The notes beneath the pieces were generated by a model, which saw nothing but the letters and a program-made list of their open reading frames with translations, searched no databases and was not told the DNA's origin. This document shows positions 4,869 to 58,771 of a DNA stretch of 64,000 bases, in pieces. Numbering within the stretch: position 1 is the first letter of the stretch; every line of letters starts with the position of its first letter. The position numbers and the translations under genes were made by a program. The stretch comes from Trichodelitschia bisporula (taxonomy: Eukaryota > Ascomycota > Dothideomycetes > Phaeotrichales > Phaeotrichaceae), in the NCBI GenBank assembly GCA_010356995.1, contig ML996706.1:259509-323508 (forward strand), read 5' to 3'.

Positions 4869-6722
4869 ATGGCAAAGTACTTCGCCGTAGCCGCCCTGCT
4901 GGCCGCCCTTGTGGCTCCCGCAGCCTCCTTGCCCGCTGGCCTCGGCATCCATTACGACGGTGACGTCGACGCACCCCTGCTGAAGCTGGACTACGCGACG
5001 TACCGGGGCAAGTACGACAACGTCAGCGACGTGCGTTCCTCCTGCCCTAGAACCCCAAAAACCCTTCTAACCCCTCGCAGGTCTTCATCTTCAAAAACAT
5101 CCGCTTCGCCGCCCCGCCCGTTGGCAACCTGCGCTGGGCGAAACCCGCCTCTCCACGACCGATCGCCGAAATCCAAGACGGGTCCGACGGGCGGCAGTGC
5201 GTGCAGGCGGGCCAGGCGCGTGCTGCCGGTCCGCCCGCCGGTGAAGACTGCCTGTTCCTCGATGTCACGGTTCCGGGTCGCGTGTTACGGGAGAAGGGCC
5301 TGAAGCTGCCGGTTGTGAACTGGGTGTATGGCGGGGCGTACAGTGCGTTCTCCCCCTTGTCTAAATTAGGATTCCGCTCACACATGCAGTCGTGGGCTCG
5401 AAAGAAGGGTACGTCCTGCCCTCCCTGCCCGAGCGAAACTAACCACCCAGCGCCAACGCCGCGGCCATGATCCGCGCCTCGAAGGGTAACCTCATCTGGG
5501 TCGCCGGGAACTACCGGGTACGCCCGCCCCCCCACCCACCCTTCGCTCTAGTCTAACCCTCCAGCTCGGCGCCTACGGCTTCCTCACCGGCACAACCGTT
5601 GAGAAGACTGCCACTCCGAACGCGGGGTTTTGGGACCAACGTGCCGTCCTCCAATGGATCCAGCAATACATCGGCCTCCTCTCCGGCGACCCCGGTGCGG
5701 TAACCACAATCGGCATCTCCGCCGGCGCGGGCTCTATCCTGCACCACCTCGTCCTGGAGGGCGGCACGCTCGACCCGCTCTTTACCCGCGCCATCCTCCA
5801 GTCCCCGGGCTACAACAACTGGCTCGACCGCGCCGGTCAGTTGGAAGCCAATTACCAGCGCTTCGAATCCCTGGCCGGCTGCACCGGGCAGGGTCTCGCA
5901 TGCCTGCGCAACCTCTCGGAGCCCGCCCTACTCAACGCCAGCATCGCAGCCAATGCCGGCCAGCGCCCCGGCAGCTTCGCCTTCGGCCCGGCACCAGACG
6001 GGAAGTTCATCGTCTCGAGCCCGACGCTCGAAATCGCAGCGGGCCGGTACTGGAAGGGTCTGTCCGGACTCATCAGCAGCCACGTCGTCGACGAGGGTGG
6101 TAGCTTCTCCGATCCCGCTATCGCCACCGACGCAGCGTTTGATGCGCTGTTAAATTCTACGTATCCAGGCACTGGGCTGGCAGGTCTGCGCGCGGGCGTG
6201 CAGCGCCTGTACCCCGCAGTGGGGGCAGATGCGGCTCGGGCCGCGGCGCTAGGGTACAAGGATGCGCGGGGCCGGCTGGGGCGCGAGATCAGCGAGATGA
6301 GTTTCACGTGCCATAACCGGGTGGCGGCGGATGGGTATCCAGGCAAGACGTGGAGCGTGCAGTACAGTGTGCCGCCGGGGACGCATGGGGCGGATCAGAC
6401 GGGGACGTTTTTCGACGTCTTGGGCCCGCGGGGACAGGGGTTGAGTGAGGGGGAGAAGAGGGAACGGGTGGGGTTTCAGGGGTTGTTGGTTAGTTTTATG
6501 CGCGGGGGGGATCCGAATGCGTATAGGGATGGGGAGGTGAGTGTTGAGTGGCCGCGGACGACGGGGTTTAATGCCACTACGTTGGGGAATGTGCTTGAGG
6601 TGCATTCGTTAGAGGGGAAGAAGGGGATGCGGATTATTGAGGATGGGTGGGTGATTAAGGAACGCTGTGCGTTCTGGACGGATGCGCAGCGGGATGTTAT
6701 GGCGACGTTGAAGACTGGTTGA
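4869..6722 (+). CDS. Type-B carboxylesterase / lipase-like protein 1
   Basis: Alpha/beta-hydrolase of the type-B carboxylesterase family, predicted to hydrolyse carboxylic esters outside the cell. Proposed exons are 4869-5030, 5081-5342, 5390-5408, 5451-5517 and 5565-6722 (555 aa); the introns are 42-50 nt and all phases agree. The N-terminus is a hydrophobic signal peptide (AVAALLAALVAPAASLPAG). Family marks in order: IRFAAPPVGNLRW, EDCLFLDV, VVNWVYGGAY, GNYRLGAYGFL, NAGFWDQRAVLQWIQ, the nucleophile elbow GISAGAGS, the acid region VVDEGGSF and the catalytic His in THGADQTG. The elbow is normally GESAG, so Glu is replaced by Ile while the Ser is kept. Exon 3 has only 19 nt. A paralog of similar layout lies at 56685-58771 and shares two intron positions. 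The substrate is unknown. The start is the first ATG of the signal peptide. Confidence 0.88.
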
Positions 6723-16427: not shown

Positions 16428-17327
16428 CTACATAAAATCCTCCTCATAGTCCGTCCCCCGGTCCTGATTGCTAGACGCTGCCACAGCGTCCTCGGAGAAT
16501 AAATCGTCGTAGGCATGGTCACGCTGCCAGGCCTTCTGCTTGCGCTCCTTAGCCACGCGTGCCTCCTCCTTCTGCCGCGTCTGCTGGGCCGCGCGGTCGC
16601 GCAGCCGCAGCTCCTTCTGGCGGTCTTCGCGCTCCTGCCGCAGGTCTGGGAACTTCTCTACCCGTGTCTTGTTGAGCCGGTTGACGATAGGGTTTTCTCG
16701 CTGGACGACGTGGATGCGCTTGACCTGGGGAGTGTTAGAGGGGATTGCGGGGTAGGAAGGAATGGTGATGGTGATGGAAGGGTAGAAGTGCCTTTTTCTG
16801 GTCCTTGAAGCCAACCTGCCCGACAGCCATGCTGCCGTCCTTTTTCAGGTTCGACCACGGCGTGTAAATGACCACAACATTGTCCTTCTTGTTGCCTATG
16901 CCTGTGAGAACCCTCCATAAAGCCCGTGACGCACGCACCCTCAATAGAATTCGCCTTCGTCAGCTGCGCGCAGTCCGTGAGTAGCTCCTCAGGGATGTTA
17001 TCCCACGTCTGGTCCTCCTGTAGTCGCAGGTAGATATGCGCACTCGAGAGATTGTCGGCGTGGAACTAAAGCATCGGCACATGTATACTCGAGGGAGAAA
17101 GTGAACACCATACCCTTCACGCGTCATTAGCCCGCTACGAATGTTCACGCACTGCGTACCATACATCCTCCTCCCAGCCGTACTTGATTAGCTCCTCGTC
17201 TGTGGTACGTTAGCGGGGCTGGATTGTGGCGCGGGCATAGAGCGGGGCACACACTTTCCACTTTGTCTTTGCCGACGTAGATGAAGGCCGAGGGCGTGAC
17301 GGTGTTGCTGGTGAAGTAGTACACCAT
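16428..17327 (-). CDS. CCDC25-like NFACT-R (DUF814) protein
   Basis: Ortholog of CCDC25, a small protein built around the NFACT-R domain; its role in fungi is not known to me. Exons in order: 17327-17255, 17199-17160, a single base at 17114, 17065-16939, 16895-16792 and 16724-16428 (213 aa; human CCDC25 is about 208). Conserved stretches: [83 protein letters not shown] and [15 protein letters not shown], then a charged coiled-coil tail ending DYEEDFM. The Trp codon of VWFH is rebuilt only if a 1-nt exon is included between two introns of 45 and 48 nt. The intron 16725-16791 appears to be GC-AG. The last intron before NKKDN uses the TAG at 16896. The gene identity is firm; the 1-nt exon is an inference. 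Confidence 0.88.
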
Positions 17328-17919: not shown

Positions 17920-18278
17920 TCACGTCTCCTCCTCGCCCTCCTCTTCGGCATCAGGCTCGGGGTACTGCGCACGCAACTCCTTGATAACATTCTGCTTCAT
18001 TAGCCGTCGCCCAACCTAACGCCCAAAAGGAGGCCGACCGCAAAACTCACCGCCAACGCCTCGGGATTAACCCCGTTCTCAATCAGCGACACGCAGTACG
18101 ACAGCTGCTGGCGGTTGAGTTGGGTATTCTGGGTCCCATTAGTAACTATAGTTTAGGGCATTGGAGGAACATGGGGGAGAGGTAGAGCTACCAACAACGT
18201 CGCAATCTCATGCAAGATATCAATAACCTCACGCGCCGCCTGGCGCTTGTCCGCATCCTGGGGCTGGCTGGGCGCCAT
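17920..18278 (-). CDS. mzt1: MOZART1 (mitotic-spindle organizing protein 1)
   Basis: Small gamma-tubulin-complex subunit that helps recruit and activate gamma-tubulin complexes at spindle poles. Exons 18278-18192, 18128-18051 and 17991-17920 give 78 aa; the introns are 63 and 59 nt and both are phase 0. The family core is complete: AAREVIDILHEIATLLNTQL, then QQLSYCVSLIENGVNPEALA, then NVIKELRAQYPEPDAE and an acidic tail. At the second acceptor a tandem GAAG/CAG choice would add one Gln; I used the CAG. The length matches the family (about 70-85 aa). No other gene overlaps it. Confidence 0.92.
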
Positions 18279-38675: not shown

Positions 38676-40313
38676 CTACAGATGCAAACTCCCTAACCCC
38701 AGCCCACTCAACTCAAATACAACCGGGCTAACCTCAACCGCAAGCCATCCAATCCCAGCATAAACAATCAGCTTCGTCACAACCTCGACATCATACCTAA
38801 CGCGCGGCTTCTCGACACCGCGGAATATCTCACGCCGCTCCGCCCGCTCCCTCTCCTCCTCGTTCTCGCCCAGCCCCTCAGTCGGGCCCCTCGGACTCTC
38901 CGGCTCAGCAGACAAGCTCTTGCGCCGCTGTTCCTGGCGGTACGCTAGCGCCTCATACGCATCCGCCACGCTCTGCGGGCCAACACTAACGGCGCGACCA
39001 CGCCGTCTGCGCACATCACCGACTAGCTGTGCCACCTCCGCAGCGGATGGGAGGACGTTATCATCGTGGCGCAGCTTGGGCACGCTATCGTACTGCGAGG
39101 CCTTGAGGAAGAACCGGCGGGGCAGATCGGCGCCGCCGAGCTCGATCACGCGGAACAGGGGCGGGAGGGTGCGGAGGAGGAGTGACTTGGCTGTGGCGCG
39201 CCAGGCGAAGATGAGGAGCACGCCCAGGGCGACGCGGGCGAGAGTCGTGGGCCAGCCGAGAGAGGCGAAGCTGTAGGGCGTGGTGCCCGGGTAGGGGTGC
39301 GGGAGGGAGTATGGGCCGTTGGCGTAGTGGCGGAAGGCGAGGGAGACGCCGATTAGGACACCGGCGAAGCACACGCTGTCGTCGAAACAGGGGCAGTCGT
39401 CGGCGGGTTCGGGATGCGTGCGCACGACGGCCAGGATTACGGTGAGGAGTAGGAGGATGTTAAGAATTGGGCCGTCGTGGATCCAAGTGTCGAAGGCGTC
39501 GCCGGCAAGGATTTGTACGACGGCGATGAGAGCGCCTAGCGCGGAGCCAACTACGACGTCGAGGAAGCCGTGCATGCCGCAATATAGGCGCCCAAAGACA
39601 ATAGACGTCCCGTAGGTCCAGCACAAGGCTTGGAGGCCAGTGCTCACTCCCCACGACAGCTCGTTCGTGGTTCGGAGCTCATACAAGGCGTAGACAACTA
39701 CCGAAATGGCATTTGTGGAGTGTGTCGACGGGAATCCGTACTCCAAGGCTGCGGAGCCTGACATTGTTATGCGCTGTAGAGGCGGGGACAGGGGCCTAGG
39801 AAGGCAGAGAAGATCCTTGATAATGCCGCTGATGATGACGCCCAGGGCGAGGAGATGCACCATTCTGTAGGTTCAGGGTCAGCCTCGCGCCCAAGTACCA
39901 CTGTGTAGAGGGGGGACATACGCCCGGCCCAGCCTGGTATAGCCACACCAGAACAGCACTGGCAGCATAACCATGAAGAACGTGTGTGTGCCCAAGTTCG
40001 CCGTGAACGCGAAGTAGGAATCGAGCGTCGGCGTGCGGAATCGGGCCTGCAAGCGGGCGAGATAAGGCGTCTCGTAGCGAACGACGGGGATCAGCGCCTG
40101 GCGGAAGGCATATCTCCAGCGGGATAACCTCGCGACATCTGCGCACAGGGTTAGAATGCCTTTGCCGGTCTATGGAACAGACAACGTACAATGGTCGACA
40201 GGCCGCATGCCCGCATCGAGGATCTTCTTCTCCGCCGCATTCTCGAGGTCAATGGGCGTCTGGAGGGCAGGAGTCGATCCCGCCGGCGGCGCGGCGGGAG
40301 CATCATGCATCAT
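38676..40313 (-). CDS. lcb3: Sphingoid-base-1-phosphate phosphatase (PAP2 family)
   Basis: ER membrane PAP2-family phosphatase of the Lcb3/Ysr3 type, which dephosphorylates long-chain-base phosphates in sphingolipid turnover. Exons 40313-40190, 40138-39922 and 39864-38676 give 509 aa; introns are 51 and 57 nt. All three phosphatase motifs are seen: KDLLCLPRP, YGFPSTHSTNA and FGRLYCGMHGFLDVVVG with the catalytic His. Membrane segments precede and follow (HTFFMVMLPVLFWCG, LLALGVIISGII, ILLLLTVILAVV and others). A charged, probably cytosolic segment near the C-terminus is rich in Arg and Glu, then a last helix. The start is the first of two adjacent ATGs. The gene is divergent from Rho4. Confidence 0.92.
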
Positions 40314-44849: not shown

Positions 44850-46164
44850 ACAAGGTAGGATCTGTCGGGGTGCGGGTTCAGTAGGTATCTTTGCTAATAT
44901 TGCATCGCAGGGACCTTGGCGATGCGGTTTCAATCCACGATGGTGCGCTTTGCCTCTTTATTCCAAATGTATGGCGTAGTGTGGACTGGCAAAATGGAAC
45001 CCATGACCTAGATCAACATGTCAAAAAGCAAAAGCATGAATCGCCTTCACTGGCGCCTTGTTCCTGACTTAGCTCAGACAGAGCAAGCCGTTACCGTTGC
45101 GTTGCTCCGAAGTGCCGACACTAGTAATGCTTGATGCCTTAACCTCACCAAGAACACAAGACAACCAACCATGACAGTTGATGAAAACGACCCACCGAAA
45201 CCCGAAGGTTTTTACTTACCCGCAGCGATTTGAACTCGCAACCGTTTAGTCCACTCGCCGAGACTGACGTTAACGACGAGCAACCGAACAGCTGGGCCGT
45301 TTACCCACAGGTAATTATGCGAATAAATGCTGCTTGTTGAACATAATGCAGTGCTCCTGAAGGCCATCCCATTCTTCTTCTGAGGCTGATACCTTGCATA
45401 CTATCACCACCTGGTGATGTGCTGAACTTCTTCGCTTAGGCAACACAACAGCAACTCTGCAGACTGCCAGCAAGCCTTCTAGGGCTCTCCAGCCCATACT
45501 ATATGCTGTTCTCCCCCTCTGTCCGCAGGAGGCCTTTGGGCGACTTTTGTAGCTCATAACACCTTGTACACACTTCAACCGTAGATAATCAGCTACTGCT
45601 AATCCCTGGTTTGCTACTATATTTCTCCGCTTTTCTCGCAGTGCATGGTGGCCCAAAGCTTGTTCAGATGCGTAGCCAACTGAACTTCACCTTCCACTTT
45701 CGGCCAAGCTGACATCACGTGCTTCAACGAGCAATCTTCGTCAACCGCAGCCGACCCGGAAAATTGATTTTCCGCTCCCGTGGCCCGTGCCACCGTGCTC
45801 CCAGGTATAAAACTCGAACCTCCCCCCTTCCAAACCTCTTCTTCTTTTCTTCAGCTCTCTTTGCCTTTGGCTTAGATCAAGTGTAGTATCTGTTCTTTTC
45901 AGTTTAATCTCTGAAACGACTCTACGGAGTCACTTCAAGATTAATCTTATTTTTGTCACCCGCTGGCCGGCCTCTGTGCTTGCGCATGTCGACCGGCACT
46001 GTGTCGCTCCTATTGCACTATCTGGAGCTGACGCGAACAACCTTTTTCATCATGGTCTTCGGCTTGTCCGGGGCTTTGGAGAAGAAGATCTTTTGCCTTC
46101 GTTAAACTGCTACCGTTTGAGAAAGCAAACGTCATGGCTTCATCACAGCCTAATAGGCGCTAGG
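44850..46164. other. Intergenic, 1.3 kb
   Basis: Convergent region between the SDR gene and the cystathionine gamma-synthase gene. It contains a degenerate tRNA-like fold at 45218-45312; otherwise no gene is supported. Confidence 0.5.
45218..45312 (-). other. Degenerate tRNA-like sequence
   Basis: On the minus strand ACCTGTG and TGCGGGT can pair over 7 bp (three wobbles), CTCGTC and GGCGAG form an anticodon-like stem, TGGGTAAACGG resembles an A box and GTTCAAATC matches a B box. The T-stem pairs poorly and no proper 7-nt anticodon loop appears. I read it as a decayed tRNA or tRNA-derived element, not a working gene. Confidence 0.25.
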
Positions 46165-48855: not shown

Positions 48856-49442
48856 TCAGAGCCGTCCCACGTTACGTTTCCTCCACTCGCCCGGTTCATC
48901 GCTACAGTCCGGAGTCTCCTCGCTTGAAGTTGGACTAGGACTCCGCTCAGCCTCTGTACGGGCCGGAATATCATCGGGCTGCTTTTCTTCTTCAGGCGAC
49001 TTATCGCTTGCAATGGCGATCGGATCAGGGCGCCGCTCAGCTTCTGAGCTGGCAGCCTTAAGCCTCTGCGCGTCACTGCGGGTGACACGCTTTTCGCCAC
49101 GGGTGACATGCCTAGCGCTAATGCGGCGCTTTTTGCCACTGTCACTACGGGTGACACGCTTCTCGCTGCGGGTGCCAGGCTTCTCGCTGCGGGTGACACG
49201 CTTCTCGCTGTGGGTGTCAGGCTTCTCGCTGCGGGTGTCAGGCTTCTCGCTGCGGGTGTCAAGCTTCTCGCTGCGGGTGACACGCTTCTCGCTGCGGGTG
49301 ACATGCCTTTCGCTAATGATGCGGCGCTTTTCGCCATTGTCACTACGGGCGACACGCTTGTTGCTACCAAGGAGGTGTTAATGGTGGCCGAAATATGTCG
49401 GTGGTGTCGATAGAGCGACTAGACGAGATACGGCAATGCCAT
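48856..49442 (-). CDS. Heptapeptide-repeat charged protein, function unknown
   Basis: Proposed two-exon gene, 49442-49432 (11 nt) and 49363-48856, giving 172 aa. The second exon has no start codon in its frame. An upstream ATG GCA TTG CC, donor GTATCT, a TTAAC branch, a pyrimidine run and acceptor GGTAG join it exactly in phase. The protein begins MALPNKRVARSDNGEKRR, carries seven 7-residue units of the type SEKxDTR or SEKRVTR, then SDSGKKRRISARHVTR, and ends in an acidic Ser/Pro-rich tail (SPEEEKQPDD) and EWRKRNVGRL. Basic clusters suggest nuclear location. This frame ends most codons in G or C (GAG, AAG, GTC, ACC, CGC, AGC), unlike the competing open frame on the same strand. It lies 225 bp downstream of esa1 on the same strand. 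No homology is known to me, so both gene and frame are inferences. Confidence 0.55.
49159..49305. repeat. 21-nt minisatellite, 7 copies
   Basis: CTTCTCGCTG recurs at 49159, 49180, 49201, 49222, 49243, 49264 and 49285, an exact 21-nt period with few base changes between units. Flanking blocks of about 60 bp at 49105-49158 and 49300-49360 are imperfect copies of each other, so there is a higher-order duplication. Because 21 is divisible by three, all units stay in frame. Confidence 0.95.
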
Positions 49443-49667
49443 TGTGGGCTGCGGGAGCGACGAAAAGAGCGTGAGACTCGCATCCAACCGCGGAATGGTT
49501 GGACAAAACTCAATTTGAAGGCGGGCGGACCATGCTTCACCAACACAAAAACTAGCCATCCATATGGCATGGGGGTATCTTTACAACGGAATCAATCAGC
49601 CGCCAAGTGCAATCGACCAAAAGTGGACATGCATCGTCCAAACGAAATCTCTTCGAGCTTATACGGC

Positions 49668-51323
<1,656 letters not shown>

Positions 51324-56684: not shown

Positions 56685-58771
56685 ATGCCGTCCCTCCGCT
56701 CGTTCCTGTGTCTTGCATTTGCCGCGCTGGTCCGTGCCGGCCCCCTTCCCGATGGCTACAATACCCGCGACTCGCTCGGGATCGATGCCGAGGCTGGTCC
56801 GGCCGTAGATGCGGCGAATGCCGCGACTATGCCAGTGGTCACGCTGCCATACGGCCAGCACCGTGCGAGCAAGTACGACGCGGCAACCGACGTGCGTGGG
56901 CTCCTTCCCTTCTGAGCACAACCCCACGTTTTTACCCCACTCTATGAAACACGTTCCTTTCTCCGATGCCGGCTAGCCCTAACCCACGCAGATCTACACC
57001 TTCAATAACATCCGCTTCGCCGCTGCTCCTGTGGGCGACCTGCGCTGGAAGAAGCCGCAGCCTCCACTCCCAGTAGCCGGCGTGCAGGATGGATCGAAGG
57101 GCGCCGCGTGCATTTCTATCGTGCCGAAGGTCGGGCTCAACTTCCTCGGCGACGCGAACTACAACGCTTCGGCTGCGGCGCAGAATGCCATCATCGGTGG
57201 GTTGGGAGCGGCCGCGGCGCCGCTGATTTTTGGCGGCGCTGAGGACTGTCTGTTCCTCGATGTGTATGTTCCTGGCAAGGCGGTACGCGAGCCGGAGAAG
57301 CATAAGTTGCCGGTGGTGAATTGGATATATGGTGGTGCTGTGAGTACTCCCAGTTAACGATGAGACGACAGCTAACGTACCAGTTCCGTATGTCACTCCC
57401 CCCCTCAACCTCAGCCACTCTAACCCCACAGTCCTCGGCTCCAAAGACATGCTAGGCGTCTACTCCGGCAACCACCTAATCGAGCTCTCCAACAACAGTA
57501 TGATCTTCGTCTCAGCAAACTACCGCCTCGGCACATTCGGCTGGCTCGCCGGCCGCACAATGGAAAAGGAATCGACCCCAAACCTCGGCCTCTGGGACCA
57601 ACGCGCCGCCCTGCAATGGATCCAATCCCACATCCACCTCTTCGGTGGCGACCGCACCACCGTCTCCGCCTGGGGCGAATCCGCCGGCGCCTCTAGTATC
57701 CTCCACCACCTCATCGCCTTCGGCGGCAAGCAGGACCCGCTCTTCCGTCGCGCTGTCCTGCAGTCTCCCGCCTTCGAACCTATGGGCGACCGCCTACCCA
57801 ACGGGACACTCGAAGCTGTCTTCCAGAACTTCACTAGCCTGGCCGGATGCGCAGGTAAAGGGCTGGCGTGTCTGCGCAAAGCCCCACTGTCGGCACTCAA
57901 CCGTGCCAACCAGGCAATCCAAGACGCAGCCCCGCGCGGGGCCTTCGGCGTCGGTCCCGCAGCCGACGGGTCCTGGGTGCGCCAGTTTCCGGCCATAGAA
58001 ATGAAGCGCGGGGCCGTGTGGCCGGGTCTCGAGAGCGCCATCATCAGCCACACCGCCGACGAGGGGACCATTTTCGTCGACGGGCACATCCAGTCCGACG
58101 CCGCGTTCGACGGCTTCGTGACGCAGGTCTTTGGTCAATTGGCGACGAATACCGGGTTCCTGACCGCGCTGCAAACCCGGTATCCCGCGGCGAGCGCAGC
58201 GGGGACTAAGTACGCGAATGTCACGGCGCGGGTTAAGGATTTCATCCGGGATAGCAGCTTTACGTGCAATGTGCGGTACTTGACGCAGGCCCTCGGGCCT
58301 AAGACTTGGAATATGCAGTACAGCGTGAGCCCGGGCTGGCACGGGCTGGACATCCTCGCGACGTTCACACGCGGCGGGTTGAAAATCGGCGGGACGACGT
58401 ACCCAGCCACCGGGGAATTCGGGCGTTTCGCTCGCACATACCAGTCTTACCTCGTCAGCCACGCCGTGACGGGCGATCCGAACACGCTGTCTATCAAGAC
58501 CGCTGATACGAGCACCGTGGCTGCGGTGCCCTGGCCCAAGACGCCGCGGTTCGTGGGGGAGAATATTGAGAACGTTCTTGATGCGGGGAATGGGACGTTC
58601 GCTGTTGTCGTTGATAAGCAGGTGCCCAAGACGAGTTGTGAGTGGTTGCAGGAGTTTGAGGAGAAGATTACGAACCAGCTGGGGTTGGCGCCAGGGCAGG
58701 CGCTGTATGGCAATTCGCGGATGGCGGAGGTGCGCCGTGCGTTGTCGAACCTGGTGAAGGGGGTGTGGTAA
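56685..58771 (+). CDS. Type-B carboxylesterase / lipase-like protein 2
   Basis: Second secreted type-B carboxylesterase. Exons 56685-56891, 56992-57339, a 4-nt exon 57384-57387, and 57432-58771 (632 aa). Signal peptide SFLCLAFAALVRAGPLP. Motifs: IRFAAAPVGDLRWKKPQ, EDCLFLDVYVPG, VVNWIYGGAF, NYRLGTFGWL, the intact nucleophile elbow GESAGASS, the acid region DEGTIFVDG and the catalytic His in GWHGLDILATF. The 4-nt exon restores the codons between YGGAF and LLGSKDML; its right-hand intron sits at the same codon and phase as intron 2 of esterase 1, and intron 1 is also shared. Unlike esterase 1 it lacks the intron after NYR. The paralogs are about 50 kb apart and in the same orientation. The substrate is unknown. 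Confidence 0.88.

Follow-up and report, generated by a model that had tools for sequence, protein, structure and literature searches.

How is the conserved motif EEDVWFHADN, interrupted on the reverse strand by 94 bp (17066–17159), put together in the mature message? The original prediction was that two introns lie here, separated by an exon of a single nucleotide. The window, i.e., the whole 64-kb stretch of Trichodelitschia bisporula DNA that we analysed (C20:259509–323508), belongs to a genome of 25.65 Mb in 30 contigs. We consider it highly probable (about 0.85) that a constitutive one-nucleotide exon, the G at 17114, lies between two U2-type introns of the ordinary kind, 45 and 48 nt long.

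Gene Identity and Genomic Context

The interrupted motif belongs to an intact CCDC25/Jlp2-like gene, the spliced ORF of which comprises 213 aa and, in the favoured model, six exons (Table 1). Its product carries an N-terminal NFACT-R domain (PF05670), matched over profile positions 1–112 of 112 at 116.2 bits in Pfam. In comparison with PDB chains, the CCDC25 structures (7eof, 7eoe, and 8woh, which we take to be human) are matched at E values of 3.8e-61 to 8.4e-61, with 56% identity to the solved piece of CCDC25, while RqcH is reached only at about 0.02. Judged by best match, the predicted protein belongs with CCDC25/Jlp2 and not with NEMF/RqcH; a second NFACT-R gene of this genome, NEMF/Rqc2-like, is located on contig C5. 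The scan of bacterial and archaeal genome contigs and of viral contigs revealed no relative of the gene, as is expected for a eukaryotic one.

The next gene upstream on the same strand is a predicted MOZART1 gene (17920–18278, reverse strand; Pfam, 83.2 bits). The product of a neighbouring gene carries both domains of Svf1, a family that is presumably fungal. The window also contains a gene for the U2 spliceosomal RNA (45851–46042, forward strand; 145.9 bits).

Table 1. Coordinates of the CCDC25/Jlp2-like gene and its parts in the favoured model (positions in the window).
Feature	Position	Strand	Evidence
CCDC25/Jlp2-like gene (NFACT-R)	16428..17327	-	spliced translation, Pfam, PDB
Exon 1, 73 nt	17255..17327	-	spliced translation, gene finder
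Intron 1, 55 nt, GTGTGT...GCTAAC...CAG	17200..17254	-	splice scoring
Exon 2, 40 nt, last bases TG of Trp codon	17160..17199	-	translation, gene finder
Intron 2, 45 nt, donor GTACGC, acceptor AAG	17115..17159	-	splice scoring
Exon 3, one nucleotide (G), completes TGG = Trp38 (favoured reading)	17114..17114	-	translation, gene finder, model scoring
Intron 3, 48 nt, donor GTATGG, acceptor TAG	17066..17113	-	splice scoring
Exon 4, 127 nt	16939..17065	-	translation, gene finder
Intron 4, 43 nt, GTGCGT...TAG	16896..16938	-	translation, splice scoring
Exon 5, 104 nt	16792..16895	-	translation, gene finder
Intron 5, 67 nt, GC-AG, donor GCACTT, branch site TCTAAC	16725..16791	-	splice scoring
Exon 6, including stop codon	16428..16724	-	translation

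Reading Frame at the Interruption

The coordinates proposed for introns 2 and 3 were verified, together with their GT-AG ends and normal length, and the lone G does complete the Trp codon, restoring EED-V-W-FHADN within the complete frame. Among the possible uses of these two introns, a full-length protein is obtained only when both are removed and the G is kept. If all 94 nt are taken out as one intron, which equals the removal of both introns with the G skipped, the frame is shifted and a stop is met after 72 residues. Retention of intron 2 results in a premature stop after 45 residues, and retention of intron 3 in a stop after 53 residues, at this intron’s own acceptor TAG. The single nucleotide is a base on which both the frame and the conserved protein depend, and it is bounded by putative acceptor AG and donor GT signals that are present in the sequence and could be scored.

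The accompanying claim that no single canonical intron fits here holds for the removal of the whole 94 nt but not beyond it. It was stated that the frame shifts whichever GT donor is paired with the TAG at 17066; we found two donors that keep it and introduce no stop. The donor GTGCGT at 17152 forms an intron of 87 nt and gives VW-YA-FH, while GTATGG at 17164 forms one of 99 nt and gives EED-FH, with Val-Trp lost. The exclusion argument of the original prediction therefore fails, and the alternatives needed to be scored. All models that keep FHADN in frame share the acceptor at 17066, because the TAG preceding TTC, if retained, would be read in frame as a stop.

Splice Signals

For this scoring we used a gene finder which combines a coding Markov model with terms for donor, branch site, acceptor, and intron length. 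It was seeded with a generic fungal consensus, used no homology, and was trained on 264 kb, made up of the window and 200 kb of four further contigs. Its uncurated output over these 264 kb comprises 73 genes and 161 introns, which are short and have GCTAAC-like branch sites. The five introns that it places in the CCDC25-like gene are exactly those of Table 1, i.e., the structure with the one-nucleotide exon. The finder has no term for exon length, so that an exon of 1 nt goes uncharged. It also ignores stop codons split by an intron, which is why at least two predicted genes in the window, 38676–40313 and 48856–51323 among them, contain an internal stop. For scoring, the splice tables were rebuilt without the five introns of the CCDC25-like gene, leaving 156 reference introns; the coding table, built from about 124 kb, still includes this gene, which makes up little of it.

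Against this reference intron 2 is average. Its donor GTACGC occurs in 9 of the 156 introns and its acceptor AAG in 13, the branch site GCTAAT lies 12 nt before the acceptor, and the summed score ranks at the 49th percentile. In intron 3 the donor, GTATGG, is found in 5/156. The branch site of this intron, GCCGAT, is located 8 nt ahead of the acceptor and is weak, scoring –1.89 bits against –1.88 for the lowest of the 156. Its acceptor, TTTAG, ranks at the 3rd percentile and its summed score at the 1st. The poor signals of intron 3 are the weakest part of the case for the one-nucleotide exon.

Intron 5 is a second splice oddity of the same gene. Its GC donor is weak (2nd percentile), its branch site is good, and there is no GT within the intron. 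The GC-AG ends can be avoided only by using a GTTGGC donor at 16815, which costs eight residues and lowers the path score from 104.4 to 101.0 bits and the Pfam score from 116.2 to 111.8 bits.

Comparison of Competing Splice Models

With the other introns fixed, we listed all models having one or two introns of 30–200 nt at the interruption, with GT or GC donors and AG acceptors. The 229 single donor–acceptor pairs gave rise to 608 in-frame, stop-free models encoding 598 distinct proteins. In similarity to human CCDC25 the one-nucleotide exon ranks first of the 608 and is the sole model with the top score (207.9 bits); the next best, at 202.1 bits, uses a GC donor and has a poor splice score, and the single introns of 87 and 99 nt reach 201.0 and 194.3 bits. 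The whole-path score is 104.4 bits for the one-nucleotide exon, 96.0 for the 87-nt intron, 97.0 for the 99-nt intron, and 84.8 for a GC-donor model adding one Tyr; the NFACT-R scores, in the same order, are 116.2, 108.5, 105.9, and 113.3 bits. The predicted exon is thus best on all three measures. The match to human CCDC25 is gapless across the junction, including W38-F39-H40, and its single one-residue gap is located upstream. The D-x-W-x-H spacing is kept without a gap in 5h3w, a presumably bacterial fibronectin/fibrinogen-binding protein (ELWFHAKD), and the NEMF/Rqc2-like paralog of the same genome has DAYVHADL, with no extra residue and with Tyr in place of Trp. Judged by these relatives, a two-residue insertion or a loss of Val-Trp at this point would be unusual, three relatives being a small sample.

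The single intron of 87 nt (17152 to 17066) requires no unusual exon and has canonical ends, and its donor hexamer GTGCGT (13/156) is, together with two others of equal frequency, the most common. It falls behind by 8.4 bits in path score, 7.7 in Pfam, and 6.9 in similarity to human CCDC25, its protein EEDVW-YA-FHADN carries two additional residues where 5h3w, human CCDC25, and the paralog share their spacing, and it would be mere coincidence that a GTACGC donor, a branch site, and an AAG-G-GTATGG core occur here. We regard it as improbable. The 99-nt intron likewise has canonical ends, lies in phase 0, and shows a slightly higher coding score (101.8 vs. 99.3), but it is worse by 10.3 bits in Pfam, 13.6 against human CCDC25, and 7.4 in path score, and it removes the Trp common to human CCDC25 and 5h3w, for which the paralog has Tyr; this makes it very improbable. 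When the exon of 1 nt is charged with an estimated 8–9 bits and the Pfam difference is added, the odds in its favour are roughly 200:1 over the 87-nt intron and 500:1 over the 99-nt intron.

Chance Occurrence and Other Readings

Another way to explain the frame is that one base was lost, either by an assembly error or really in this strain, from a gene having a single intron of the 94-nt class, the AG-G-GT core then being accidental. Exactly one base is missing, it adjoins a run of G, and the odd intron 5 shows that the gene deviates elsewhere too. This reading demands that a good donor–branch–acceptor set appear by chance together with the core. To estimate how often this happens, we fixed 6 bases at the beginning and 30 at the end of the 94 nt and replaced the interior in 100,000 trials for each filler. 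An equal or better AG-G-GT partition arose once with genomic filler, 12 times with shuffled interiors, and never with intron filler; with any exon base permitted, the counts were 6, 18 (shuffles), and 230 (intron filler). The last figure probably reflects overlapping windows from a small intron pool, in which a handful of spots recur. When no more than six and four bases were fixed at the ends, the frequencies were 1/20,000 for G and 6/20,000 for any letter. Fifteen of the reference introns are 77 nt or longer; a one-nucleotide partition is absent from 14 of them and poor in the remaining one (7.2 bits vs. 23.3 observed here). Moreover, the frame stays open and conserved through the rest of the gene down to its stop, and taking the 94 nt as a single intron would not remove the weakness of its acceptor and branch site. 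We find this reading quite improbable.

Non-canonical or nested removal of 93 contiguous nt, as in a stwintron, would give an identical mRNA. Since removal of 94 nt shifts the frame, such an element would have to occupy one of the two in-frame 93-nt registers, TACG...TTAG or GTAC...TTTA; whatever they might enclose, neither combines a GT at its start with an AG at its end. For this reason the stwintron was rejected, and we find any removal of this kind extremely improbable. An introner, i.e., a repeated mobile intron, was also considered and rejected. A 106-base query for near-identical copies across the genome (best candidates scored, very common words skipped) returned the self match only, and this lack of a second copy gives no sign of a repeated intron.

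Taken together, the scores support the originally predicted one-nucleotide exon and do not prove it, and the reason first given for excluding a single intron was wrong. Standard annotation would probably get this gene wrong.

Other Very Short Predicted Exons

The gene finder predicts 101 internal exons across the 264 kb, of which four do not exceed 11 nt (1, 4, 6, and 11 nt). The 4-nt exon TTCC (57384–57387, forward strand) lies between two 44-nt introns of a predicted carboxylesterase gene (Pfam COesterase). Its model is the best of 293 on both paralog similarity and splice score; the runner-up, a single 88-nt intron, is 1.0 bit behind in similarity, with splice scores of 36.6 vs. 11.1 bits. 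A carboxylesterase paralog in the same window (4869–6722) has the second of these introns at the same position and lacks the first. The 11-nt exon belongs to a predicted FKBP12-like gene on contig C3 (L013, 9763–9773) with seven exons for 125 residues; it is gapless against PDB 5b8i, and the model has a six-residue insertion elsewhere. The 6-nt exon (L018 on contig C5, 3357–3362) is located in a predicted coatomer zeta-like gene, the alignment of which to PDB 3tjz is gapless across the exon. This genome thus seems to tolerate very short exons, all four being predicted ones, and this apparent tolerance raises the prior for an exon of one base.

Proposed Order of Splicing

In the proposed arrangement a single base would separate the acceptor AG that closes intron 2 from the donor GT that opens intron 3. 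At this spacing two spliceosomes could not bind together, so that the introns would have to leave in turn. Most likely, intron 2 would leave first because its signals are better and fuller. After its removal the donor context of intron 3 scores 5.1 bits, vs. 6.1 before, and is still usable. Short fungal introns are usually recognised by intron definition, under which the length of the exon would be irrelevant. Failures of such splicing would not be silent, since skipping of the G or retention of either intron would lead to a premature stop.

Comparison with Known One-Nucleotide Exons

The closest known case is that of the Fusarium CYP621A genes. Nelson and Syed (2026, PMC12940212) describe a candidate exon within AGGGT in all 24 genes, count 20 orthologs (24 genes are given in their discussion), and report 18 RNA reads in two species. 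There, as here, the host is a filamentous fungus, a phase misfit falls inside a conserved motif, and two introns, predicted ones in our case, replace one long one; the core in the CCDC25-like gene, gtgaAG-G-GTatgg, also reads AGGGT with the putative exon G. The difference is that the Fusarium exon lies in a P450 and is backed by orthologs and RNA reads, whereas ours is predicted in one unrelated gene. The explanation put forward in that study is the loss of a base from the edge of an exon and its rescue by a cryptic intronic AGGGT. By analogy, the exon in the CCDC25-like gene would fit such a scenario.

For plants, Guo and Liu (2015, PMC4674806) proved with reporter constructs that APC11 of Arabidopsis has a one-nucleotide exon, and such exons of plant APC11 and VPS55 are documented by RNA-seq and RT-PCR (PMC8831610). 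In soybean APC11, the number of junction reads that could be mapped was small before the aligner had been given the 1-nt exon (PMC8831610). The plant exons resemble the one predicted here in being a single base between two introns that is required for the frame, and differ in kingdom and gene, the exon of Arabidopsis APC11 being an A. The fungal stwintrons (PMC9024468, PMC12403724) are described as two adjacent introns excised by consecutive reactions. Consecutive removal of adjacent introns would be shared by the CCDC25-like gene, but no exon base is kept between the parts of a stwintron, while one would be kept here.

Fungal microexons are considered relatively little characterised (PMC11121469). 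In the count of PMC12940212, Arabidopsis APC11 was the only earlier example and the Fusarium P450s are the first fungal one; VPS55 of plants (PMC8831610) comes in addition. A one-nucleotide exon in CCDC25 or Jlp2 was not found in the titles and abstracts among the matches listed. One-nucleotide exons are already known, in very few genes, and the one predicted in the CCDC25-like gene would be a new, as yet unproven case.

If the predicted exon is real, it would extend this class to a gene shared with humans, and the same AG-G-GT core would mean that such exons recur in fungi. It would also place a constraint on models for the use of adjacent splice sites in turn, and could explain some of the “frame-shifted” gene models which are now discarded or attributed to sequencing errors. 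Perhaps, in this intron-dense fungus, purely intron-defined, sequential splicing sets no minimum on exon length, and one-base exons with the AG-G-GT core may arise independently in unrelated fungal genes such as CCDC25 and Fusarium CYP621A, rescuing the frame in invariant motifs, many of them hidden behind broken models. This generalisation is a tentative one, and we think it rather doubtful at present; if it holds, the exon in the CCDC25-like gene would be one instance of a recurrent type of frame rescue in fungi.
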